Shown: positions 1,042 through 26,656 of the stretch, one piece after another
Position numbering within the stretch: the stretch's first letter is position 1
Layout of the letters: each line of letters begins with the position of its first letter
Assembly: GCA_019113275.1 (NCBI GenBank)
Contig: DXHS01000012.1
Coordinates: 1 to 38,289, forward strand
Direction: 5' to 3'
Length of the DNA stretch: 38,289 nucleotides
Origin: Candidatus Protoclostridium stercorigallinarum
GTDB lineage: Bacteria; Bacillota; Clostridia; Christensenellales; Pumilibacteraceae
Position numbers and translations under genes: made by a program
The notes under the pieces: generated by a model
Told to the model about the DNA's origin: nothing
The model's database searches: none
Seen by the model: only the letters and a program-made list of their open reading frames with translations

Positions 1042-1222
1042 AGCGGCGGAGGTACGGTTTGTCGTTATTCGGGTACGGATTGCTTTTGAGGTATAAGTTA
1101 CAACGGCAGAAGAGCGTTGAATAACAAAAATGCGCCGCGCCGCTTTTTATGTGTTATCATTCGTGTACAAACCTTTCCGCGCGCTTGTTATAGCCGCATT
1201 GCGCGGGGGAGGGGGAAAATAC

Positions 1223-4219
1223 ATGGAGGTAAAAAGGAAGAAAATGAAGATCCTTTCAAAGACGCCCTTAAGGGCGATCCTTACGGGCGTTTTCGCTCTT
1301 CTCCTCGTGGTCGTTATTATCGGCACCGCGGTGACGAGCTACTTCGCTCCGTACATCAACTCCGTGCTCGGAGCGTCTACGTCCAAGATAATCCGCGGCG
1401 ACAAAACGAACACGGACACCGAGTACTTCAAGAGCGATTACGCTTACGACCGCGCAGGCGAAGAGAAGCTGATCGCGGACGCGAAGGAAGTGTACCGCAG
1501 CAGCGTGGAGGAAGGTTCCGTTCTCCTTAAAAACGAGAACAACGCGCTTCCGCTCGCTTCGACGGGTAACGTCGTGGTATTCGGCGGCGCGGCGAACCAG
1601 CACATCACCGGGTTCAAGACGCAGCTCGAGACGGCGGGCTACACCGTCAACGAGGACGTGTGGACGTACTACTCCAACAAGAAGGGCACGTCGAGAACGA
1701 ACGCCGGTATCCCCAACTGGGACAGCTCGATAGACGGCATGGTGACCGAAACGGGCGCCACCGCGATCGTGACGTTCGGCAGACGCGCGGGCGAGGGCAC
1801 GGACGCGGCTCACCCCGGCGTATCCATCAATAAGACCAATGACCCGACGGGCTTCCAGACGGAGAACGACTACCTCAGCCTTTCGGGCGGCGAGCAGCAG
1901 ATGCTCGAGCACGTCAAGGCGATGAAGGATGCGGGCAAATTCTCCAAGATAATCGTCATCATCACGACGAGCAACATGATGCGCGGCGACTTCATCGACA
2001 ACGCGGCTTACGGTATCGACGCGGCTGTCTGGACGGGTCAGGCTTCCGCCGATTACGGCACCGAAGGTCTCGTCAACATCCTTCAGGGCGAGGTCAACCC
2101 CTCGGGCAGACTGGTAGACAGCATCTATATGGACAATATGGATCTCGACGCCAACCCCGTCATGGCTAACCTCGGCAACTTCAACGGCGACCTTTCCGCG
2201 GTGACCGCGGGGCTCGTGGATGAAGTCAAGACGGAGAACTATCAGTTCAACGCCAACCCTCAGGGCAACGACTGGGACAAGAGCGTCGTTTATCAGGAAG
2301 GCGTGTACCTCGGCTATAAGTACTACGAGACCAGATACGAAGACTATGTGATGGGCACGGGCAACGCGGGCGACTTCGTCTACGACGAGCACATCGCATA
2401 CCCGTTCGGCGAAGGTCTTTCGTACACGTCGTGGGAATACACCGCGTTCACCGCGTCCGAGGACGACGATAACTTCACGTTCAACATCACGGTAAAGAAC
2501 AGCGGCGGCAAGGACGGCAAGCACTCCGTGCTCATCTACATGCAGTCGCCGTACACCGATTACGACAAGGAAAACGACGTGGAGAAGCCCGCGGTGCAGC
2601 TCGTAGGCTTCACCAAGACGGGCGACGTCAAGGCGGGAGCGACCGAGGATGTGACCGTTACCGTTCCCAAGTACATGATGCGCGCCTACGACTCCAATGC
2701 AGCCAAGACGTACATCCTCGACGCCGGCGACTACTACTTCACGGCGGCGGGTTCCTCGCACGAGGCGGTCAACAATATCCTTGCGGCTAAGGGATATTCG
2801 CCTTCTTCGACGAGCAACAAGATGGACGCCGAGGGCGACAAGGACTCGGTGTACAAGCACACCGAGAGCGCGCTCGACACCGAGATATTCTCTACGTCGT
2901 ACGCTACGGGCAACGAGATAACCAACCGCTTCGACGACGTAGACCCCAATAAGGACGTCAACGCTTCCAAGCTCAACGACGTTAAGTGGGTGACGAGAAG
3001 CGACTGGACGGGCACGCTGCCCAAGACCAACGTCACGATCAAGTACAACGACGGGATGGTAGAGCTCGCTCGTCCCGTGACCTACGTCGCGGATCCCGAG
3101 GAGCAGAAGAATACGGAGATGCCCAAGTTCGGCGTCGCCAACAACCTCACCCTCGCGATGTTCATGGACGTCGATTACGACGATCCGCTGTGGTACGACC
3201 TGCTCGCGCAGATGACGTACGAAGAGACGGCTAAGCTCGTCACCAACTGCTGGTACGGTTCGGACGCCGTCGGCAGCGTAGGCAAGAACAGACAGACCGA
3301 CCAGGATACGTCCATGGGCCGCACCAACCCGTTCACCGCCAACCCCGACCTCATGGGTATAGCGTTCACCTCGGGCGACCTGCGCGCGGCTACGTTCAAT
3401 AAAGAGATCATGAAGGCTATCGGCACGATGACGGGCGAGAACAACCTGCACGCTTCCACCGATAACGTCAAGGCGGTAGGCCTCTACGGCTTCAGCCCCA
3501 ACATCCACCGCTCTCCTTACTCCGGACGTAACGGCGAGTACTTCTCCGAAGACGCTTACATCACGGGTATCGCCTGCGGACTTGCGGTCTCCGGCATGGA
3601 AGAGAAGGGAAGCGTCTGCTTCGCCAAGCACTTCTTCCTCAACGACCAGGAAGACAGCCGTCACGGTATCGCCACCTGGGCGAACGAGCAGACCATCCGC
3701 GAGACGTATCTGCCCGCGTTCGAGTACATCATCACCTACGGCGGCAGCATGGGTCTCATGAACTCCTTCAACCGCATCGGTATGAGATGGGTAGGCGAGC
3801 ATAAGGGCGCTCAGCTCGACATGCTCCGCGACGAATGGGGCTTCATGGGCAACATCGTCACCGACCTTTACGAAGGCGACTACCAGGATGTCATCGACGG
3901 CCTGCTCGCTCATACCACGATGTGGCTGACGACGGCTGCCGACCAGTACTGCTACGGTCTGCTGACCGGCGACAAGTACCGTAACGATCCCGTTATCGTC
4001 ACCGCGCTCGTCGAGGCGGCTCACCGCATGCTGTACGGTTCTTCGAGGAACGCTTCGATGAACGGTCTCGACACGACCGACCGTATCGTCGAGATCATGC
4101 CTTGGTGGCAGGCGGGACTCATCGCGCTCATAGTCATCTTCGCGGTGCTCACCGCGGCAGGCGTAACGATGACTGTACTGTCGCTGACGGTATTCAAAAA
4201 GCGCGACGCCCGCGAATAA
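1223..4219 (+). CDS. Domain-permuted family 3 glycoside hydrolase (GH3-1), membrane anchored at both ends
   Basis: GH3_C-like region first (GSVLLKNENNALPL), then YPFGEGLSYTSW FnIII-like region, then barrel motifs NIHRSPYSGRNGEYFSED, FAKHFFLNDQEDSRHG, GFMGNIVTD. N- and C-terminal hydrophobic segments. GGGGGAGGGGG SD-like run before ATG 1223 (ATG 1244 is an alternative). Confidence 0.9.
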   Translation: MEVKRKKMKILSKTPLRAILTGVFALLLVVVIIGTAVTSYFAPYINSVLGASTSKIIRGDKTNTDTEYFKSDYAYDRAGEEKLIADAKEVYRSSVEEGSVLLKNENNALPLASTGNVVVFGGAANQHITGFKTQLETAGYTVNEDVWTYYSNKKGTSRTNAGIPNWDSSIDGMVTETGATAIVTFGRRAGEGTDAAHPGVSINKTNDPTGFQTENDYLSLSGGEQQMLEHVKAMKDAGKFSKIIVIITTSNMMRGDFIDNAAYGIDAAVWTGQASADYGTEGLVNILQGEVNPSGRLVDSIYMDNMDLDANPVMANLGNFNGDLSAVTAGLVDEVKTENYQFNANPQGNDWDKSVVYQEGVYLGYKYYETRYEDYVMGTGNAGDFVYDEHIAYPFGEGLSYTSWEYTAFTASEDDDNFTFNITVKNSGGKDGKHSVLIYMQSPYTDYDKENDVEKPAVQLVGFTKTGDVKAGATEDVTVTVPKYMMRAYDSNAAKTYILDAGDYYFTAAGSSHEAVNNILAAKGYSPSSTSNKMDAEGDKDSVYKHTESALDTEIFSTSYATGNEITNRFDDVDPNKDVNASKLNDVKWVTRSDWTGTLPKTNVTIKYNDGMVELARPVTYVADPEEQKNTEMPKFGVANNLTLAMFMDVDYDDPLWYDLLAQMTYEETAKLVTNCWYGSDAVGSVGKNRQTDQDTSMGRTNPFTANPDLMGIAFTSGDLRAATFNKEIMKAIGTMTGENNLHASTDNVKAVGLYGFSPNIHRSPYSGRNGEYFSEDAYITGIACGLAVSGMEEKGSVCFAKHFFLNDQEDSRHGIATWANEQTIRETYLPAFEYIITYGGSMGLMNSFNRIGMRWVGEHKGAQLDMLRDEWGFMGNIVTDLYEGDYQDVIDGLLAHTTMWLTTAADQYCYGLLTGDKYRNDPVIVTALVEAAHRMLYGSSRNASMNGLDTTDRIVEIMPWWQAGLIALIVIFAVLTAAGVTMTVLSLTVFKKRDARE

Positions 4220-4238
4220 ACAAGGGGGTAAATAAGAT

Positions 4239-5195
4239 ATGAAAGCTGTAAAAAGAATGATCGCATTGCTGCTCACGGCGCTTCTCGTGCTCACGGCGGC
4301 GGCAGTGCTCAGCGCATGCGGCGGTTTCACCGTCACCTACGTCCTTCCCGAGGGCGCGACGGGCACCGCTCCCGCGTCCGCGACGTACGCGCAGTACGAC
4401 GTATTCAAGGCACCCGAGGGAACGGGTCTGGAAAAAGAACATTCGACCTTCGTCGGCTGGGCGGATTCCAGCGGCAGAGTGTACGAGCCGGGCGCGGACA
4501 TCACGATGGGCGGCGGCGACCTGACGCTCACCGCGGTGTTCGAAGGCACGTTCATCACGAACTCCTTCGCGTCCAACCCGGGCACCTTCCTGATGAGCCA
4601 GGGCAGATTCATAGGTCCTTCGCCCGCGCACACGTATTTCTATGCGGATAATACGTGGGTGGCGGATGCCGAGGGCGGCTCCTGCTTCTCCCACTGGGAG
4701 GGCACCTGGGAGCTGTCGAGCTCGGGCGAGTTCTCGATGAAGCTCGTCGTGCAGGACGGCGTCACCAAGAACGAGGCGGTGGAGATCACCGACGCCGAGG
4801 ACGGCAAGTGCTTCTCCTTCACGCTCTCCCATCCGGGCGACCGCGGCGGCATGAAGTACCACACGAACTACCTCTCCAAGTACGACTTCATCACGTCGTA
4901 CAACAAGGAGTTCGGCACTTCGATAAACGCGGGCACCGAGCCTACGTTCACCGTGACGTTCACCGCCGGCGCGACCGATACGACGGGCGAAGTCCCCGCG
5001 GCGATAACCGTGAAGAAGGGCGAGACCGTCACTCTTCCGGGCGCGGGCACCCTCGAGCGCGAAGGCTACAAGCTGGACGGCTGGAAGATCCAGGATTACT
5101 GGCTGTACGACTATACGACGAACTATCCCGTAGGGTATGAGTTCCCGATGTTCGAGCACAGCGTGGAAGCTTCTGCTATCTGGGTAGCGGAGTGA
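4239..5195 (+). CDS. Lipoprotein with Listeria-Bacteroides (InlB B-type) repeat-like domains
   Basis: Signal peptide with lipobox LSAC; FTVTYVLPEGATG...FVGWADSSGRVYEPGADITMGGGDLTLTAVFE and a second FTVTFTAGATDTTGEVP...YKLDGWK unit. Confidence 0.75.
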   Translation: MKAVKRMIALLLTALLVLTAAAVLSACGGFTVTYVLPEGATGTAPASATYAQYDVFKAPEGTGLEKEHSTFVGWADSSGRVYEPGADITMGGGDLTLTAVFEGTFITNSFASNPGTFLMSQGRFIGPSPAHTYFYADNTWVADAEGGSCFSHWEGTWELSSSGEFSMKLVVQDGVTKNEAVEITDAEDGKCFSFTLSHPGDRGGMKYHTNYLSKYDFITSYNKEFGTSINAGTEPTFTVTFTAGATDTTGEVPAAITVKKGETVTLPGAGTLEREGYKLDGWKIQDYWLYDYTTNYPVGYEFPMFEHSVEASAIWVAE

Positions 5196-5213
5196 TAAAA
5201 AACGACAGGCGAA

Positions 5214-5237
5214 GCCGCCCGCCCTCGGGCGGGCGGC
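5214..5237 (+). other. Intercistronic hairpin
   Basis: GCCGCCCGCC CTCG GGCGGGCGGC, 10-bp perfect stem. Confidence 0.6.
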
Positions 5238-5264
5238 GGAGCCGCGCTTAACGGAGCAAGAGAT

Positions 5265-5951
5265 ATGGACAAAAAGAAAGGTGCCGACAGGGTCGGCAGT
5301 AAACTCGAAATAGCTATACCCGTAGTCGCGGGCGTGATGCTGCTCTTTGCGCTGTTCTTCCCGCTCATCATATGGGACGCTCTCGGCGCGGGGGCCATGC
5401 ACTTCATGCAGTATTCGGGCGTGGCGGTAGCCGGCTCGAGCGCGGGCGACTCCAAAGCGACGTTCTTCTTCGGGCTGGATTACACGCTCTCCCATCTCGG
5501 TTCGGGGTTCATCCCCGCGCAGCTGTTCTCGGCTCAGTGGCGCGTCGTGCTCGACACGACGGAAGCCTCGGCGGCAGCGGACGGGCTGGGCGTCATCACG
5601 ATGATACTCACCGTGCTGCTGTTCGTGACGCCGCTTCTTATGATAGCGGGATACGTCGTCGATAAGATCCTCAAAAAACCGATCACGCGCAAGATAGCCA
5701 AGTATCTCGCGATCGTGTGCGCGGGCATAGAGATGGTCACCTTTATATGGTTCGCGATTATCGTGTTCACGATGGCGGGCAAGGTGCAGCCTTACGGCTT
5801 CCGCACGTTCGATTTCATGGCTTACGGCGGCATCAAGTTCGTGATAGAGATGGCGCTGTGCGCCGCTCTCTGCGCGCTGAACACGCTGCTGTTCGTAAGG
5901 ATACTCAAAGAGGAAAAATCGAAAAAGATCGCCGATCCGGCGGCGGCATAA
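5265..5951 (+). CDS. Predicted multi-pass membrane protein, function unknown
   Basis: Complete ORF with several hydrophobic segments, co-directional with GH3-1. Confidence 0.75.
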   Translation: MDKKKGADRVGSKLEIAIPVVAGVMLLFALFFPLIIWDALGAGAMHFMQYSGVAVAGSSAGDSKATFFFGLDYTLSHLGSGFIPAQLFSAQWRVVLDTTEASAAADGLGVITMILTVLLFVTPLLMIAGYVVDKILKKPITRKIAKYLAIVCAGIEMVTFIWFAIIVFTMAGKVQPYGFRTFDFMAYGGIKFVIEMALCAALCALNTLLFVRILKEEKSKKIADPAAA

Positions 5952-5956
5952 ACGGA

Positions 5957-6006
5957 GCCGGCAAAGATCTTACTCGTCGGAAGGGTAAGGTCTTTGCGGC
6001 GTTTTT
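5957..6006 (+). terminator. Rho-independent terminator
   Basis: GCCgGCAAAGAtCTTAC...GTAAGgTCTTTGCGGC stem followed by GTTTTT. Confidence 0.8.
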
Positions 6007-6028
6007 GCCCGTTATGGGATAAGGGGTA

Positions 6029-6057
6029 TTGACCGCCCGATAAAAAAGGTGTATAAT
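6029..6057 (+). promoter_or_regulatory. sigma70-type promoter for RR-1/HK-1
   Basis: TTGACC - 17 nt - TATAAT. Confidence 0.75.
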
Positions 6058-6072
6058 CACAAAAGGAGAATG

Positions 6073-6801
6073 ATGGATAATATGAAACAGGTGTGTGTGG
6101 TGGAGGACTCCGCGAGCGACGCGGAGCAGCTCGAAAAGTTCATACGGCGTTTTGCCGAGGAGCGCAAGGAGAACATCTCCGTCAAGGTGTACCGCGAGGG
6201 GATAGACTTTCTGAGCAATTACAAGTCGGACGCGGACGTCGTGTTCCTCGACGTAGAGATGCCCATACTAAGCGGCATAGACGTCGCGCGCAAGCTGCGT
6301 GACACCGATCCTTACGTTCAGATAGTGTTCGTCACCAACATGGTGCAGTACGCGCTGCGCGGCTACGAGGTGTCCGCTCTCGATTACGTGATAAAGCCGG
6401 TATCCTATTACCGCATAGCGGACTGCCTGAAACGCGCGTTCATGCGCACGCCGGCGAGGGAAGTGAAGCAGCTCGTGATAACGGTGTCGCCGGGCGAGAC
6501 CGTGCGCGTCGCCGAGACGGATATCTATTACATAGAAAAGCAGTCCAATTATCTGATATACCATACCGTGCGCGGGGACTACCGTGCGCGCGGTTCGCTG
6601 CACGTCGCGGAGGACGAGTTGCGGGGGGGGGGTAACTTCTCGAGGTGCATAAACGGCTGTCTCGTCAACCTGCGCTATGTGGACAGGACGACGCAGACTT
6701 CGGTGTTCGTGGGCGGGACGGAACTTCCGCTCGCGCGACCCCGCCGCAAGGATTTCATGAACGATCTGCTCGGCTGGCTGGGCAAGGGAGGCAGGGCATG
6801 A
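6073..6801 (+). CDS. LytTR-family response regulator (RR-1)
   Basis: Receiver motifs VVEDSASD, VVFLDVEMP, VIKPVS; C-terminal LytTR YIEKQSNYLIYHT...FSRCINGCLVNLRYV. SD aggag. Contains a G10 tract at 6623-6632. Confidence 0.9.
   Translation: MDNMKQVCVVEDSASDAEQLEKFIRRFAEERKENISVKVYREGIDFLSNYKSDADVVFLDVEMPILSGIDVARKLRDTDPYVQIVFVTNMVQYALRGYEVSALDYVIKPVSYYRIADCLKRAFMRTPAREVKQLVITVSPGETVRVAETDIYYIEKQSNYLIYHTVRGDYRARGSLHVAEDELRGGGNFSRCINGCLVNLRYVDRTTQTSVFVGGTELPLARPRRKDFMNDLLGWLGKGGRA
6623..6632 (+). repeat. Homopolymeric G10 tract within RR-1 coding sequence
   Basis: ttgc-GGGGGGGGGG-taac read directly. Confidence 0.97.
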
Positions 6802-8120
6802 ACACGATCCCCCTTTCCTCGCTGCTCTATGTGGTAACGCTGATAGCCGGCGAATACATGTTTTTATACCGTATGCCCCGCCGCGAGCATTTCATGCCGC
6901 GGCTGCTCGTCTATTTTCTCGCGTATCCCGCGGCGTGCTACGGGCTGGGGTGGTTCGCGGTGTTCGTCAACGGTGCGATCACGTCCGATCTCGTGCGGAA
7001 CCTGTTCCAGATCGCGTATTTCGCCGTGATATTCTTCCTTTCCGTGCCCGCGGTGTTGTTCTGCTGGCGGGTGAGCGTGCGCGAGGCGGTGTTCTGCTGC
7101 ATAGCGGGTTACTCCGTCGAGCACATATCCAACGTGTTCGCCACCGTGCTGATGTTCGTGTTCTCGCAGGCGGGGGTGACGATGCCGACCGCCGTGCGCA
7201 TGGTCGCGATAAGCCTCGTGCTCAAGTTCGCGGTCATCGTGGCGATGTTCCTGCTCTTCGTGCGCCGCTCCGAGCGACCCGACATGCCGACGTCGGACAA
7301 CCGCGTCATGGCGGTCTCCGCGATAAACCTCATCATCTGCATGGTGCTCAACATCATGAAGATGTACGGCATGGGAGAGCCCGTCAACTCGTTCACGACG
7401 AGTATCATCTGCTCGGCTTACGCGTTGTTCGGCTGCTCGCTGTGTCTGTGGCTGCAGCTGGGCTGGGGCAGGGAGAACAGGCTCAAAGAAGACAATCTCG
7501 CGCTCGAACAGCTGCTCGCGCAGGAGGCGAAGAAGAACGAGCTCAGCCGCAGCACGATAGACATGATAAACATCAAGTGCCACGACCTCAAATACAGCCT
7601 GCGCCGCCTGGAGAGCGGCAGCCGCGAAGAGAACAGGGAAGTGATAAAAAGCATTTACGACTCCTTCGCGATATACGACTCTCTCGTAAAAACGGGCAGC
7701 GAGGTATTCGACCTGCTCATCATGAACGTCTGGCCGATGTGCCGCGCGAACGGCATATCCTTCACCTATATCGTGGACGGCGCGGCTCTCTCCGGGCTGC
7801 GTACCGCCGACGTGTCCTCGCTGTTCGGCAACCTCATCGACAACGCCGTGGAGGCGGAGATGAGAGAGGAGCGCGACCGCCGCATGATAAGCCTCAACGT
7901 GCGCCGCGAGCGCAGCATGCTCGTCGTGCACATGCACAATTACTGCTCCGTGCAGCCCGAGTTCTCGGACGGCTTGCCCGTCACCACCAAGGCGGACAGG
8001 CGCTACCACGGTTTCGGCGTGCGAAGCGTGCGTTACCTCGTGCGCAAGTACGGCGGCGAGCTGCGCATGACCTGGTCGGACGGCATGTTCGAAACGGATA
8101 TCGTCCTTCCGCTGCCGTAA
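6798..8120 (+). CDS. GHKL-type sensor histidine kinase (HK-1), AgrC/HPK10-like architecture
   Basis: ATG overlaps RR-1 stop (ATGA). Multi-TM N-terminus; KCHDLKYSLRR H-box; LFGNLIDNAVEAE N-box; HGFGVRSVRYLVRKYGG. Confidence 0.88.
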   Translation: MNTIPLSSLLYVVTLIAGEYMFLYRMPRREHFMPRLLVYFLAYPAACYGLGWFAVFVNGAITSDLVRNLFQIAYFAVIFFLSVPAVLFCWRVSVREAVFCCIAGYSVEHISNVFATVLMFVFSQAGVTMPTAVRMVAISLVLKFAVIVAMFLLFVRRSERPDMPTSDNRVMAVSAINLIICMVLNIMKMYGMGEPVNSFTTSIICSAYALFGCSLCLWLQLGWGRENRLKEDNLALEQLLAQEAKKNELSRSTIDMINIKCHDLKYSLRRLESGSREENREVIKSIYDSFAIYDSLVKTGSEVFDLLIMNVWPMCRANGISFTYIVDGAALSGLRTADVSSLFGNLIDNAVEAEMREERDRRMISLNVRRERSMLVVHMHNYCSVQPEFSDGLPVTTKADRRYHGFGVRSVRYLVRKYGGELRMTWSDGMFETDIVLPLP

Positions 8121-15247: not shown

Positions 15248-16024
15248 ATGAGAGGGAACGATAAAAACCGATCGGATACGACATTCGGGAAAAGGGCTGC
15301 CGTGTATCGTATAGCGGTGGTCGAGGATGATAAGCGCGAGGCGGACGAACTGGTCTCGTTCATAGGAAGGTATTTCCGTGAGCGGCAGACCGAAGTGATC
15401 GTTACGGTGTTCGGCGACGCGGAACGCTTTCTCTGGCAGGAATCGGCGTCGTTCGATCTTGTGTTCCTGGACATAGAACTGCCGGGCAGGAACGGGATGG
15501 AAGCCGCGGGTGAGCTGCGAAAGACAAACTCCGAGACGGTCATAGTATTCGTCACATACATGGCGCAGTTCGCCATGACGGGTTACGAGGTGGACGCGGC
15601 GGATTTTATTGTCAAGCCCGTGGACTATCCGAGTTTTGTCCTTAAAATGAAAAGAGTGAGCGATCTGCTCGCCGGCAGGCGGGGAGAGAGTCTTTCGTTC
15701 ACGACGCCTCAGTCGGGCATGCGTCGCATAAACGTACGCGAGATACGGTATGCGGAAGCGGTAGGTCATAAGATCGTGTTCCATCTTGCGGACGGGCGCA
15801 CGCTGGAGACGGGCGGTTCGCTCAAAAACTTGCAGCAGAGGCTCGATCAGAATACTTTCGTGCGCTGCAACAGCTGCTATCTGGTCAATCTGAGGTATGT
15901 GATGGGAGTCAGCGGCTATACCGTGGATGTGGACGGAGAAGAGCTGCAGATAAGCCGTGCGCGACGCAAGGATTTCATGAGGGCGGTGAGCGGCTATTTC
16001 GGACTCGGGGGGGGGGGTAGATAA
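15248..16024 (+). CDS. LytTR-family response regulator (RR-3)
   Basis: VVEDDKREADE, LVFLDIELPGRNG, FIVKPVD; LytTR EIRYAEAVGHKIVFHL...FVRCNSCYLVNLRYV. Start uncertain: ATG 15248 or GTG 15302. Confidence 0.87.
   Translation: MRGNDKNRSDTTFGKRAAVYRIAVVEDDKREADELVSFIGRYFRERQTEVIVTVFGDAERFLWQESASFDLVFLDIELPGRNGMEAAGELRKTNSETVIVFVTYMAQFAMTGYEVDAADFIVKPVDYPSFVLKMKRVSDLLAGRRGESLSFTTPQSGMRRINVREIRYAEAVGHKIVFHLADGRTLETGGSLKNLQQRLDQNTFVRCNSCYLVNLRYVMGVSGYTVDVDGEELQISRARRKDFMRAVSGYFGLGGGGR
16007..16017 (+). repeat. Homopolymeric G11 tract at 3' end of RR-3, just upstream of HK-3 start
   Basis: ctc-GGGGGGGGGGG-tagataaATG read directly. Confidence 0.97.
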
Positions 16025-17515
16025 ATGCCGGTCACTTCTTTCGACATTTATAAGATCGTGTTCATGGCGGAGCTTCTGGTATCCGAATGCCTTTTCGTGT
16101 TCAGGCTCAAGCGGCGGCGGATGTTCGCGTTGCGTGCCGCCCTGTCGGTGTTCGTCTGTCTTGCTTCGGCGGTATTCGTTCCCGTCGTCGCATATAATGC
16201 GGCGTATACGTCCTTTTTGTTCGTCGCGTTCTTTGTCGTTACGCTGCTGTGTGCGAAATTCTGTTTTGCGGAAAGTTGGTACAATGTATTTTTCTGCTGC
16301 ATAGCGGCGTATACCATACAGCATCTGGCGTACGAACTGTTCAATTACATAAGTTCGGTCTCCGGCATAGTCACTTCCTATTCGGACAACATATACAGCG
16401 ATTCGGCTCCCGTGGTGCCGGACGCGTACACCGTTGTAATGTACTTCGGCATATATGCGACGGTATATTGGCTGATGTTCGTCCTTTTCGGAACGCGTGT
16501 GCGCAAGGCGGAGGAAATGTCGCTCAGGGGCGGCTGGATGCTGTTCCTTGCGGCGATGATAATACTTGTCGATATAGTATTCAACGCCGTTACCGTGTAC
16601 GAGTGGTACGAAAACCCCAACGCGGTATACCGCACGGTAGTCTTTTTGTATAACATCGTCTGTTGCCCGCTCGCGCTCATCGTGCAGTTCGGGCTTTTGT
16701 CGCGTAAAAATCTCGAAAAGGAACTGTATGCCGTGCGCAGTCTGCGGCGGATGGAGCGCAAGCAGTACTACGTATCCAAAGAGAGCATGGATCTGATAAA
16801 CCGCAAGTGTCACGACATAAAATTCCAGTTGCGCAGATACGGGCGGGATATGGCGCTCGGAGAGGACGCGATAAAAGATCTGGAAGAGGCGGTATCCATA
16901 TACGATACTTCGGTAAAAACGGGCAATACGGCGCTCGACTCCATAATAGGCGAGAAGAACATGTTCTGCAAGATGAACGGCATAAAGTTCACTTGCATGG
17001 CGGACGGAGCCGCGCTTTCTTTCATGCGCGAAGTGGATATCTATTCGCTGTTCGGCAATATGCTCGAGAATGCCGTAGACGCGGTCGGACGGCTGGACGA
17101 AGCAAACAGGATCATCGGGCTCGTGGTGCGCAGAGAGCACGATATGGTATCCGTCAATGCGTACAACTATTATTCGGGAGACCTTGTCATGAAAGACGGT
17201 CTGCCCGTGACGTCGAAAGGCGATCCGAAATATCACGGCTACGGTATGCGCAGCATAGAGGCCATCACCGACAAATACGGCGGCAGCGTGTCCGTCGCCG
17301 CAGACGACGGGATATTCAGGCTGAATATCATGCTGCCCGTAACGCGGTCGGGGCAGCCCGATATGGAAACGGGCGCCGACGCCGAAACTCCGGAAGAAGA
17401 GATCGCGGGCGTGCGCGCGGGAGCGATAGTTATCCCGCCCGCGCTCATAGCGGCGTTCGTTTCGTTCGGACTGCTGATAATATCCTGCCACGAAGCGCTC
17501 ACCGCCGTCGTATGA
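16025..17515 (+). CDS. GHKL-type sensor histidine kinase (HK-3), AgrC/HPK10-like
   Basis: Multi-TM N-terminus; RKCHDIKFQLRR; LFGNMLENAVDAVG; HGYGMRSIEAITDKYGG; extra C-terminal hydrophobic segment. Confidence 0.87.
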   Translation: MPVTSFDIYKIVFMAELLVSECLFVFRLKRRRMFALRAALSVFVCLASAVFVPVVAYNAAYTSFLFVAFFVVTLLCAKFCFAESWYNVFFCCIAAYTIQHLAYELFNYISSVSGIVTSYSDNIYSDSAPVVPDAYTVVMYFGIYATVYWLMFVLFGTRVRKAEEMSLRGGWMLFLAAMIILVDIVFNAVTVYEWYENPNAVYRTVVFLYNIVCCPLALIVQFGLLSRKNLEKELYAVRSLRRMERKQYYVSKESMDLINRKCHDIKFQLRRYGRDMALGEDAIKDLEEAVSIYDTSVKTGNTALDSIIGEKNMFCKMNGIKFTCMADGAALSFMREVDIYSLFGNMLENAVDAVGRLDEANRIIGLVVRREHDMVSVNAYNYYSGDLVMKDGLPVTSKGDPKYHGYGMRSIEAITDKYGGSVSVAADDGIFRLNIMLPVTRSGQPDMETGADAETPEEEIAGVRAGAIVIPPALIAAFVSFGLLIISCHEALTAVV

Positions 17516-23566: not shown

Positions 23567-23597
23567 TTGCATTTTGGCGTAGGGGGGGGGGTATTAT
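23567..23597 (+). promoter_or_regulatory. Promoter of GH3-4 with G10 tract in the spacer
   Basis: TTGCAT - 19 nt (includes G10 at 23582-23591) - TATTAT. Confidence 0.6.
23582..23591 (+). repeat. Homopolymeric G10 tract
   Basis: gta-GGGGGGGGGG-tattat read directly. Confidence 0.97.
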
Positions 23598-23656: not shown

Positions 23657-26656
23657 ATGTTCAGACTTACAAAACTCTGGGCAGGACTCGTTGCGGTATT
23701 CGCGGTCCTTTTAACGATCGTGATAATCGCAACGACCATCGGGCTTGACTACGCGGACGTCATCAACGACGCGTTGGACGTACAGCTTACCGAAGTAGTG
23801 AAATCCGATGAACCGACCGAGGATATCGACACCGAATACTACAAAAGCTCGTTCGGCGCGATAACCGCGGAGAATCAGGAGAAGCTCGTGGCGGCGACGC
23901 TCGAGCAGACCGTCAATGAGATGAGAGAGGGCGCTGCGCTGCTTTACAACAAAGAGTCCGCTCTGCCTCTTAAGACGGAGACCAGGATATCCGTGTTCGG
24001 TCATGCGGCGGTGGATCCCGCGTATCAGTCGAGCTCCGCAGGCACCAAGGTCAACAACGATTCGCTCAACGTCGTGACGCTGCGCGAGGCGCTGGAGGCG
24101 GAGGACTTCGAGCTCAACGAAACGCTGTGGACGGCGCTCGAAAACGGCACGGCAAAACGTACCGTGGGTTCGGCGAAAGGCTCGGAAGAGAACAAGGCGT
24201 TCTATGAAGGGCAGCGTTCGAGCTGGGCGAGCGACTACAAGGACGCCGCGATAGTGGTATTCTCCCGTCAGGGAGGCGAGGGTACCGACCTTGCGATGCG
24301 CGACGATGACGACGAGGGCGGCAGCACGGAGAAGATAAGCTCGCTTGCGCTGCATAAGAACGAGCGCGACATGCTCGAACTCGTGCGCGAGGATTTCGAC
24401 AAAGTCATCGTTCTGCTCAACACCCCCAACCAGATGGAAGTGCACGAGATACTGCCTTATTGCGACGCGGTATTGTTCATGGGCTTCCCCGGACATCAGG
24501 GCTTTACCGGCGTGGCGGAGATACTCCGCGGTAAGGTCAACCCGTCCGGACATCTCGTGGATACGTACGCGGTCAATTCGGTAGGCGCGCCGGCATGCGT
24601 CAACTCGGGCACCGAGACTCCGCTGTTCACCAATGCGGATGCGCTCAACGAAAAGATAGGCGAGGCGGAGAACGCCGAAAACGTATCCTTCCAGGCGGAA
24701 GGCATCTACATCGGTTACCGCTATTACGAGACTCGTTACGCCGATTGCGTTATGGGAGTCAAGGGTGCGGACGGTTCTCAGGGCGCCAAACCCGGTGCTA
24801 CGAGCTGGGAGTACGCGGATGAAGTTTCCTATCCCTTCGGCTACGGTCTGTCGTACACGACCTTCTCGCAGAAGATAACCGGCTTCGAGAACGGCGCGGA
24901 CGAAGTGACTCTCACCGTAGAGGTGGAGAACACGGGCGATGTGGCGGGCAAGAGCGTCGTTCAGGTATACGCGCAGACGCCTTACGGCGACTACGAGAAG
25001 GAGCGCGGCATAGAAAAGTCCGCCATCCAGCTCGCGGGCTTTGCCAAGACCAAAGAGCTTAAAGGCGGGGATAAAGATACCGTCACCGTTACGGTGGACA
25101 AGTACCTGCTCGCGAGCTACGACCGCAACGACACCAAGGGTTACGTGCTCACGGCGGGTGACTACTATTTCGCGATAGGCGACGACTCGCACGACGCGCT
25201 CAACAACATCCTTGCCGCGCAGGGTTACGACACGTCCGACGGCATGACGGAGAACGGCGACGGCAGCGAGAACAAAGTGCGCAGCTACGGTCAGTCTCTC
25301 GATACGAACAAGTATCGCAACGGAGAGGGCAACACCATCGTCACCAACCAGTTCGACGATTGCGATCTCAACTATTGGACGGATACCGAATACAAGTATC
25401 TTTCGAGAAGCGACTGGTCGGGCACCTATCCCACCGAGCAGGTGGAAGTGGCTGCGACGGACGCTATGATGGAGTACCTCGACGGTAACTTCTACGTCAA
25501 GCCGGAAGACGCTCCCACTTACGACGAAGTGGCTGCCCGCTTCGGCAAGGATGCGGATCTTACGATCGCGATGATGCGTGACGTTCCCATCACCGACAGA
25601 GCGACCTGGCGTAAGTTCATATATCAGCTGGATATCGAGGATCTCGCCAACGCTACGGCGGAGAGCTTTACCTGCCCGGCGGTCGGCGAACTTTCTCCCG
25701 CGTTCGGCGTGGGCGACGGCTGCGACAGCATCATGGGCAATCTGCCCTTCAAGGTCACGGTGGACGGAGAGGAAGTCACGGTGCAGTCCACGAGATATTG
25801 CAGCAAGCCCATCCTTACTGGTACGTTCAACACCTCGCTTTACTCCGAGCGCGGCAGACTGATGGGCGAAGAGGGTCTCTGGTGCAAGAAGATGGAGAAC
25901 TACAACGTCGGCGGTAACCTGCACAGAACGCCTTTCGGCGGCCGCAGCTTCGAGTATATGTCCGAGTGCCCGACGATGTCGTACCTCGCGGCTATCCCCG
26001 AGGTCATCGCAATGGAAAAGACGGGTTCGCACTCCGCGCCCAAGCACTTCACGGGCAACGATCAGGAAACGCACCGCGAGGGTGTGGTGACGTTCTTCAA
26101 CGAGCAGGCGTTCCGCGAGGGCAACCTCAGGGCGTTCGAAGGCGCGCTCAGGGTCGCAGGCGCGGGCGGACTCATGCAGTCCTTCTCCCGTCTCGGCGTC
26201 AAGTGGGCGTCCCACAGCTATGCGCTCAATACCGTCGTGCTCCGCAACGAGTGGGGATGGACGGGCAACATAGTCACCGACGCGGCACCCATGCGCGATA
26301 TTTCGTCCGAGGGCACCGGTTACAAGAACCACAGCCCCGAAGGCTTCGCGGCAGGTACCGAACAGTGGTGCCTTGACGGTAACGGCGGTCACGGTAAAGC
26401 CACGCTCGAGATAGCAAAGGAGACGAACGACGGTTACCTTGTGGAGCGCATGGTAGACGCAGCCATCAGCTGGGAATACGCTATCAGCCGTTCCTGCATC
26501 ATAAACGGCATGGCGCCCGGCGACAAGGTCGTCCCCGTGACTCCCTGGTGGCAGGTAGCCCTCTATTGGGCGATAGCCGTATGCGCGGTGCTCACCGCGG
26601 CAGCGGCAGCGATGCTCGTCGTATCCGAGATCAAAGGCGAGCGTAAGGAGGCATGA
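23657..26656 (+). CDS. Domain-permuted GH3 (GH3-4), membrane anchored at both ends
   Basis: GAALLYNKESALPL, YPFGYGLSYTTF, GNLHRTPFGGRSFEYMSE, PKHFTGNDQETHREG, GWTGNIVTD; SD aggagg; hydrophobic N- and C-termini. Confidence 0.9.
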   Translation: MFRLTKLWAGLVAVFAVLLTIVIIATTIGLDYADVINDALDVQLTEVVKSDEPTEDIDTEYYKSSFGAITAENQEKLVAATLEQTVNEMREGAALLYNKESALPLKTETRISVFGHAAVDPAYQSSSAGTKVNNDSLNVVTLREALEAEDFELNETLWTALENGTAKRTVGSAKGSEENKAFYEGQRSSWASDYKDAAIVVFSRQGGEGTDLAMRDDDDEGGSTEKISSLALHKNERDMLELVREDFDKVIVLLNTPNQMEVHEILPYCDAVLFMGFPGHQGFTGVAEILRGKVNPSGHLVDTYAVNSVGAPACVNSGTETPLFTNADALNEKIGEAENAENVSFQAEGIYIGYRYYETRYADCVMGVKGADGSQGAKPGATSWEYADEVSYPFGYGLSYTTFSQKITGFENGADEVTLTVEVENTGDVAGKSVVQVYAQTPYGDYEKERGIEKSAIQLAGFAKTKELKGGDKDTVTVTVDKYLLASYDRNDTKGYVLTAGDYYFAIGDDSHDALNNILAAQGYDTSDGMTENGDGSENKVRSYGQSLDTNKYRNGEGNTIVTNQFDDCDLNYWTDTEYKYLSRSDWSGTYPTEQVEVAATDAMMEYLDGNFYVKPEDAPTYDEVAARFGKDADLTIAMMRDVPITDRATWRKFIYQLDIEDLANATAESFTCPAVGELSPAFGVGDGCDSIMGNLPFKVTVDGEEVTVQSTRYCSKPILTGTFNTSLYSERGRLMGEEGLWCKKMENYNVGGNLHRTPFGGRSFEYMSECPTMSYLAAIPEVIAMEKTGSHSAPKHFTGNDQETHREGVVTFFNEQAFREGNLRAFEGALRVAGAGGLMQSFSRLGVKWASHSYALNTVVLRNEWGWTGNIVTDAAPMRDISSEGTGYKNHSPEGFAAGTEQWCLDGNGGHGKATLEIAKETNDGYLVERMVDAAISWEYAISRSCIINGMAPGDKVVPVTPWWQVALYWAIAVCAVLTAAAAAMLVVSEIKGERKEA

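Follow-up and report, generated by a model that had tools for sequence, protein, structure and literature searches.

The RR-1/HK-1 pair and its G tract

The gene of a response regulator, here called RR-1, carries a run of ten G within the sequence encoding its LytTR DNA-binding domain, which raises the question of whether this tract is a contingency locus able to switch a signalling system, and whether it stands alone. The window, i.e. the whole stretch of 38,289 nucleotides analysed here, belongs to Candidatus Protoclostridium stercorigallinarum, an uncultured member of the gut Clostridia known from a fragmented 1.65-Mb assembly of 122 contigs with 86% completeness. Its closest named relative is Candidatus Protoclostridium gallicola, also of the Clostridia, from chicken.

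RR-1 (6073..6801, + strand) encodes a receiver and a LytTR domain (Pfam Response_reg, 5.5e-15; LytTR, 4.6e-10), with an ATG at 6070 or 6073 as start codon and a TGA at 6799-6801 as stop codon. A putative sigma-70-type promoter, read from the sequence, precedes it on the same strand (6029..6057; TTGACC at 6029-6034, a 17-nt spacer and TATAAT at 6052-6057) and contains no G tract. The adjacent gene, HK-1 (6798..8120, + strand), codes for a sensor kinase with a GHKL ATPase domain (HATPase_c_5, 1.8e-21). The two genes share an ATGA at 6798-6801, in which the HK-1 start codon (6798-6800) overlaps the RR-1 stop codon, as had been noticed earlier. A receiver-LytTR regulator next to a GHKL-type (HATPase_c_5) kinase is the composition of a LytTR two-component system of the AgrA/LytR type. 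Upstream of RR-1 and in the same orientation lies a module (1130..5951) made of a large GH3-like ORF, a lipoprotein-like ORF and a membrane ORF, recognized as ORFs and by Pfam analysis of 4239-5195 and 5265-5951. As the arrangement is collinear in a related species (L171; blastn, window positions 1213-8081), this module is likely to be a target or partner of RR-1/HK-1, and the pair may control these neighbouring GH3, lipoprotein and membrane genes.

The G10 tract itself (6623..6632, + strand) had been described as uninterrupted in a sequence-only reading of the window, and the same was found when the sequence was read again. It lies on the coding strand and spans the end of an Arg codon followed by Gly-Gly-Gly. 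In an AlphaFold model of RR-1 (mean pLDDT of 86.6, and of 76 for the block around the tract), the residues that it encodes close a helix of the LytTR domain (helix 177-187), directly before the strand FSRCI (190-194). Tract lengths of G7, G10 and G13 yield the full-length protein of 241-243 amino acids, whereas G8 and G11 lead to a stop directly past the tract (186-187 amino acids), and G9 and G12 add VTSRGA before a stop is reached (192-193 amino acids). These frames agree with the earlier statements that RR-1 is full length at G10, that one additional G causes an immediate stop and that the loss of one G causes a stop shortly after, here after six codons. Glycine is encoded by GGC in 63% and by GGG in 11% of the Gly codons of the window. 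With this codon use, the probability of CGG GGG GGG GGT given Arg-Gly-Gly-Gly is 1.4e-4, and the run is therefore unlikely to be a plain spelling of these residues, GGG being a minor Gly codon.

Long G runs in the window and in the genus

The window contains ten octamer-G matches, compared to 0.87 expected from dinucleotide shuffles, and none of 100 shuffles reached ten. Besides the RR-1 tract, long runs are present at 16007-16017 (G11) and 23582-23591 (G10). In the whole genome, 23 distinct G runs of at least 9 were found. Lengths of G/C runs were counted as 143 runs of 5, 8 of 6, none of 7, 1 of 8, 4 of 9, 18 of 10 and 1 of 11 in 248 kb of this genome; the contigs had been picked for long runs, so that the counts from 9 upward apply genome-wide and those of shorter runs to the 248 kb. 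The spectrum is bimodal, and two modes are not expected from neutral mutation, even allowing for the choice of contigs. Nonamer-G matches number 43 in this genome, compared to medians of 16 for 73 further members of the family and of 0 for a sample of 117 others from the class Clostridia.

Five more genomes of the same genus added 83 tracts, giving a total of 106 in six genomes, all with a length of 9 to 11 except for one of 12. The flanks of these tracts are biased, coding tracts included, with a C before the run in 61 and a T after it in 88 of the 106 cases; a TAA, TAG or TGA placed straight after the run creates an immediate stop in one frame. Ten of the 106 tracts are located less than 250 bp from a contig end (in G000, the genome of the window, and in G007, G002 and G001), where 3.2 were expected. 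This may come from strain heterogeneity or from repeated promoters that break assemblies, and the excess was set aside as proof of the former, since the latter has the same effect. In another genus, a stretch of 50 consecutive G (G026:C18:30212-30261) is probably an assembly or sequencing artefact.

G tracts in LytTR regulator and GHKL kinase genes

LytTR regulators and GHKL kinases were located around the 106 tracts of the six genomes with profiles seeded by the genes of the window itself. In the genome of the window, 11 of the 23 tracts fall within such genes or at their margins, whereas 0.9 would be expected (P=4e-10), an expectation based on a generous estimate of 31 LytTR/GHKL gene pairs. 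Over the six genomes the number is 36 of 106, all but one on the sense strand, and the association is significant at P=3.5e-4 or less in four of the five other genomes; G002 has 14 tracts, none of them in LytTR/GHKL genes. A Pfam search detected 27 LytTR domains in the genome of the window, and about 11 of the 27 LytTR systems bear a tract, while one more (C68) has a promoter tract.

Sixteen of the 36 tracts are inside conserved domains, and 20 lie at junctions, close to where a gene ends and immediately ahead of the following one. Among the domain-internal tracts, 14 are in frame as assembled; the two off-frame alleles are a kinase gene of the window's genome (G000:C5) and a regulator gene (G001:C45:9461). 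At least one of the slipped frames meets a stop within 14 nt in 13 of the 16 (null 0.38, P=6e-4).

The junction type is represented in the window by a second LytTR response regulator gene, RR-2 (15248..16024, + strand, Pfam), with its GHKL sensor kinase partner HK-2 (16025..17515, + strand; HATPase_c_5, 3.9e-22). The G11 tract (16007..16017, + strand) occupies the 3' terminal part of RR-2 and is separated from the HK-2 ATG by 7 nt. With G11 the frame ends at a TAA abutting this ATG, with G12 an immediate stop follows, and with G10 the frame continues for 284 nt. Over the six genomes, 17 of the 20 junction tracts are followed, at a distance of 4-14 nt, by a candidate start codon for the second gene. 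In three cases (G000:C23, G008:C131 and G001:C38) one tract length joins both genes in frame into a fused HK-RR or RR-HK. Most junction linkers contain a stop, so that there is no sign of selection for fusion, and the idea that junction tracts are designed toggles between separate and fused proteins was rejected. The possibility that tracts in LytTR/GHKL genes act within promoters was likewise rejected, as none of the 36 reaches a promoter score of 9/12.

G tracts in putative promoter spacers

The 70 tracts outside LytTR/GHKL genes were scored for promoter-like surroundings, and 33 of them lie between -35- and -10-like hexamers with a score of at least 9/12, counted as matching positions. At the same threshold, 3% of shuffled flanks and 1 of 70 reverse strands scored. 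In the genome of the window, most of the tracts outside regulator and kinase genes resemble promoter spacers. Examples include TTGACA-N18-TATAAT enclosing the G run (G007:C6 and G001:C11). The spacers range from 14 to 22 nt, which is the picture to be expected if length changes shifted a promoter into or out of its optimum.

In the window, the G10 at 23582-23591 occupies the spacer of a putative promoter (23567..23597, + strand; TTGCAT at 23567-23572, 19 nt, TATTAT at 23592-23597), a weaker match than these examples. A similar 69-nt element stands before another tract of the same genome (C16:18101). Downstream of this putative promoter is the gene of a GH3 glycoside hydrolase with an N-terminal hydrophobic segment (23657..26656, + strand; Glyco_hydro_3_C, 2e-24; Glyco_hydro_3, 3e-13). 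The genes behind other promoter tracts include those of two more GH3 enzymes, ABC transporters, LytTR regulators, an LRR_5 protein and a collagen-repeat lipoprotein-like protein.

The tract in relatives

Comparison of tract length in relatives had been proposed earlier as a check. The RR-1 ortholog of Ca. P. gallicola, picked by protein similarity (78%) and not by its tract, carries an uninterrupted G9 at the same codons (LGGGGSFSRC versus LRGGGNFSRC in RR-1), which is in frame because flanking changes compensate. The DNA around this tract is 74% identical to the RR-1 region over 812 nt, and the upstream ORFs, the regulator and the kinase are collinear between the two loci. Other ortholog-like pairs also differ in length (C27 with G10 and G001:C60 with G9; G003:C28 with G9 and G007:C40 with G10), as does a pair of promoter tracts (C12 with G10 and G003:C3 with G9). 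The check thus revealed length differences between species, in the RR-1 ortholog as in other pairs. The outcome named beforehand as speaking against a switch, namely that all relatives share one length or have their Gly codons interrupted, was not seen inside the genus.

Outside the genus, relatives encode other residues at the site, and the regulator genes of L062-L074 have no tract. In G026, from another genus of the family, three runs are located at the 3' end of RR-1-like regulator genes, and the association of tracts with regulators may therefore be older than the genus.

Mismatch repair genes

The genome of the window encodes both MutS1 (921 bits, C42:41295-43829) and MutL (492 bits, C42:43856-45532), and hypermutation by loss of mismatch repair was rejected as the cause of the tracts. 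In the same-genus genomes G002, G009, G010 and G011, neither a full-length MutS1 nor a good MutL match was found, which incomplete assemblies could explain. G009 to G011 have 0-1 nonamer-G matches each, and the tract load may depend on mismatch repair.

Interpretation of the tracts

The RR-1 tract combines several features of a phase-variable locus: it is a long uninterrupted homopolymer, changes of one base would switch the product off, and it is kept in relatives with a length that varies between species. Very probably, therefore, the G10 of RR-1 is a contingency tract, one of a genome-wide set that would switch LytTR/GHKL systems as well as surface and transport genes. The sequence-only reading had seen in this regulator gene the layout of a slipped-strand phase-variable switch, and this proposal is strengthened by the separate mode in run lengths, by the concentration of tracts in LytTR/GHKL genes (in five of the six same-genus genomes) and in promoter spacers, and by the gallicola ortholog, which keeps an uninterrupted run of another length at the same site. 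The layout stands, with the qualification that the RR-1 tract is one of a set that includes the promoters of surface genes.

According to the proposed mechanism, replication slippage (slipped-strand mispairing) would alter the RR-1 tract by one base. At G10, or at G7 or G13, the whole of RR-1 would be made and HK-1 translated by coupling; at G8, G9, G11 or G12, RR-1 would end in the middle of its DNA-binding domain and coupling to HK-1 would be lost. The RR-1/HK-1 branch would then stay silent in the cell and its progeny until a reverse slip restores the length. We infer that such slippage takes place in living cells, that the truncated RR-1 is inactive and that HK-1 translation is lost with it. 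The same process would switch other members of the LytTR/GHKL family through tracts in genes and at junctions, and surface and transport genes through tracts in promoter spacers; slipped-strand mispairing that alters the length of the DNA is the explanation shared by in-gene and promoter-spacer tracts.

By extension, and with a confidence only somewhat above even, about a dozen of some 27 LytTR systems per genome would switch independently by slippage in genes, junctions and promoters. A clone would then be a mixture of cells with different working sensors, superimposed on phase variation in the promoters of GH3, lipoprotein and transporter genes.

Some observations count against phase variation. 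The excess of in-frame alleles (14 of 16) is larger than free unselected switching would leave, and the ON state is therefore usually selected or the slippage rate modest. MutS1 and MutL, which usually lower slippage, are both present, and none of the G002 tracts is in a LytTR/GHKL gene.

Homopolymers can cause transcriptional slippage, and the tract might act at the RNA level, with polymerase slippage or ribosomal frameshifting yielding both full-length and truncated RR-1, in constant proportion, from unchanged DNA. The in-frame excess suits this idea, as the DNA need not vary, but the ortholog tract is G9, so the length is not fixed, and two assembled alleles are off frame. Moreover, about half of the non-LytTR/GHKL tracts are in promoter spacers, where neither process can act because the spacers are upstream of the likely transcription start, and we regard this explanation as improbable. 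Slightly less probable still is a passive by-product, i.e. a tolerated poly-Gly turn spelled GGG through mutation bias and without switching. The glycines are indeed at a helix end or turn where relatives carry other residues, whereas the near absence of runs of 6-8 below a peak at 10, the minor use of GGG, the retention of the run with changed length at 74% DNA identity and the promoter-like spacers around about half of the non-regulator tracts all argue against it. For the junction runs (e.g. 16007-16017, not 6623-6632), a static Shine-Dalgarno-like element could be considered in view of the 17 of 20 situated 4-14 nt upstream of a candidate start codon; however, a ribosome site needs about 5 nt rather than a pure run of 9-11, and neither the domain-internal tracts (16 of 36) nor the promoter tracts would be explained, which makes it very unlikely. 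Homopolymer assembly or sequencing error, conceivable in a fragmented assembly of 86% completeness since homopolymers are error-prone, is the least probable of all, as about a third of the gene-internal tracts, instead of 14 of 16, would be in frame after random errors of one base, and tracts occupy matching sites in independent assemblies of other species.

If the contingency-tract explanation is true, bet-hedging in a commensal acts on the signals that a cell perceives, beyond what it displays, and clone-mates may differ at random in the signals that they answer; it also occurs through tracts in a lineage that retains mismatch repair. As every tract and its ON lengths are predicted, the proposal can be tested on existing metagenome reads without culture.

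Comparison with known systems

Among organisms with poly-G contingency loci, host-adapted pathogens such as Campylobacter, Helicobacter and Neisseria are the best-known examples, and there the loci mostly act on surface structures. In the largely open-access literature searched on homopolymer phase variation of LytTR regulators and on Protoclostridium, no earlier report was found. Homopolymer switches in single two-component genes are known; what appears to be new here is a poly-G set aimed at the LytTR family in gut Clostridia.

The CmrRST switch of Clostridioides difficile is a DNA inversion, whereas here a homopolymer lies inside the regulator gene. Both cases concern phase variation, proposed in the present one, of a signal-transduction system in Clostridia (PMC6837544).

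The poly-G/C loci of Campylobacter jejuni are similar in being uninterrupted G/C runs at G9-G10, mostly genic with an intergenic minority, and many per genome (PMC8355987). In Campylobacter, G8 tends to gain and G11 or longer to lose bases, and the tracts therefore settle at G9-G10 (PMC8355987); by analogy, the lengths found in this genus (9 to 11, one 12) match that equilibrium. The main targets in C. jejuni are surface glycan, flagellar and LOS genes, and its FlgSR (FlgR/FlgS) variants, described as non-reversible, originate in short A/T tracts (PMC8355987), whereas here the tracts are poly-G and their main gene target is a large paralogous LytTR/GHKL family, in Clostridia with MutS1 and MutL present. 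In Helicobacter canadensis, homopolymers near the 3' end alter the C-terminus while the protein is kept (PMC2823697), which resembles the junction tracts such as 16007-16017, except that here the 3' tract is also just ahead of the start of the next gene of an RR-HK or HK-RR pair.

The C6/C7 variation of BvgS in Bordetella pertussis is comparable in that a homopolymer within a two-component gene, by shifting the reading frame, turns the pathway off (PMC1891110); it involves one short C run in one kinase, compared to about 11 tracts of G9-G11 here, spread over separate regulator and kinase genes. In Bifidobacterium breve, another Gram-positive gut commensal, replication slippage in an intragenic G tract has been shown at the population level (PMC9187656). 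That tract switches pilus gene clusters, whereas those described here target a family of regulators.
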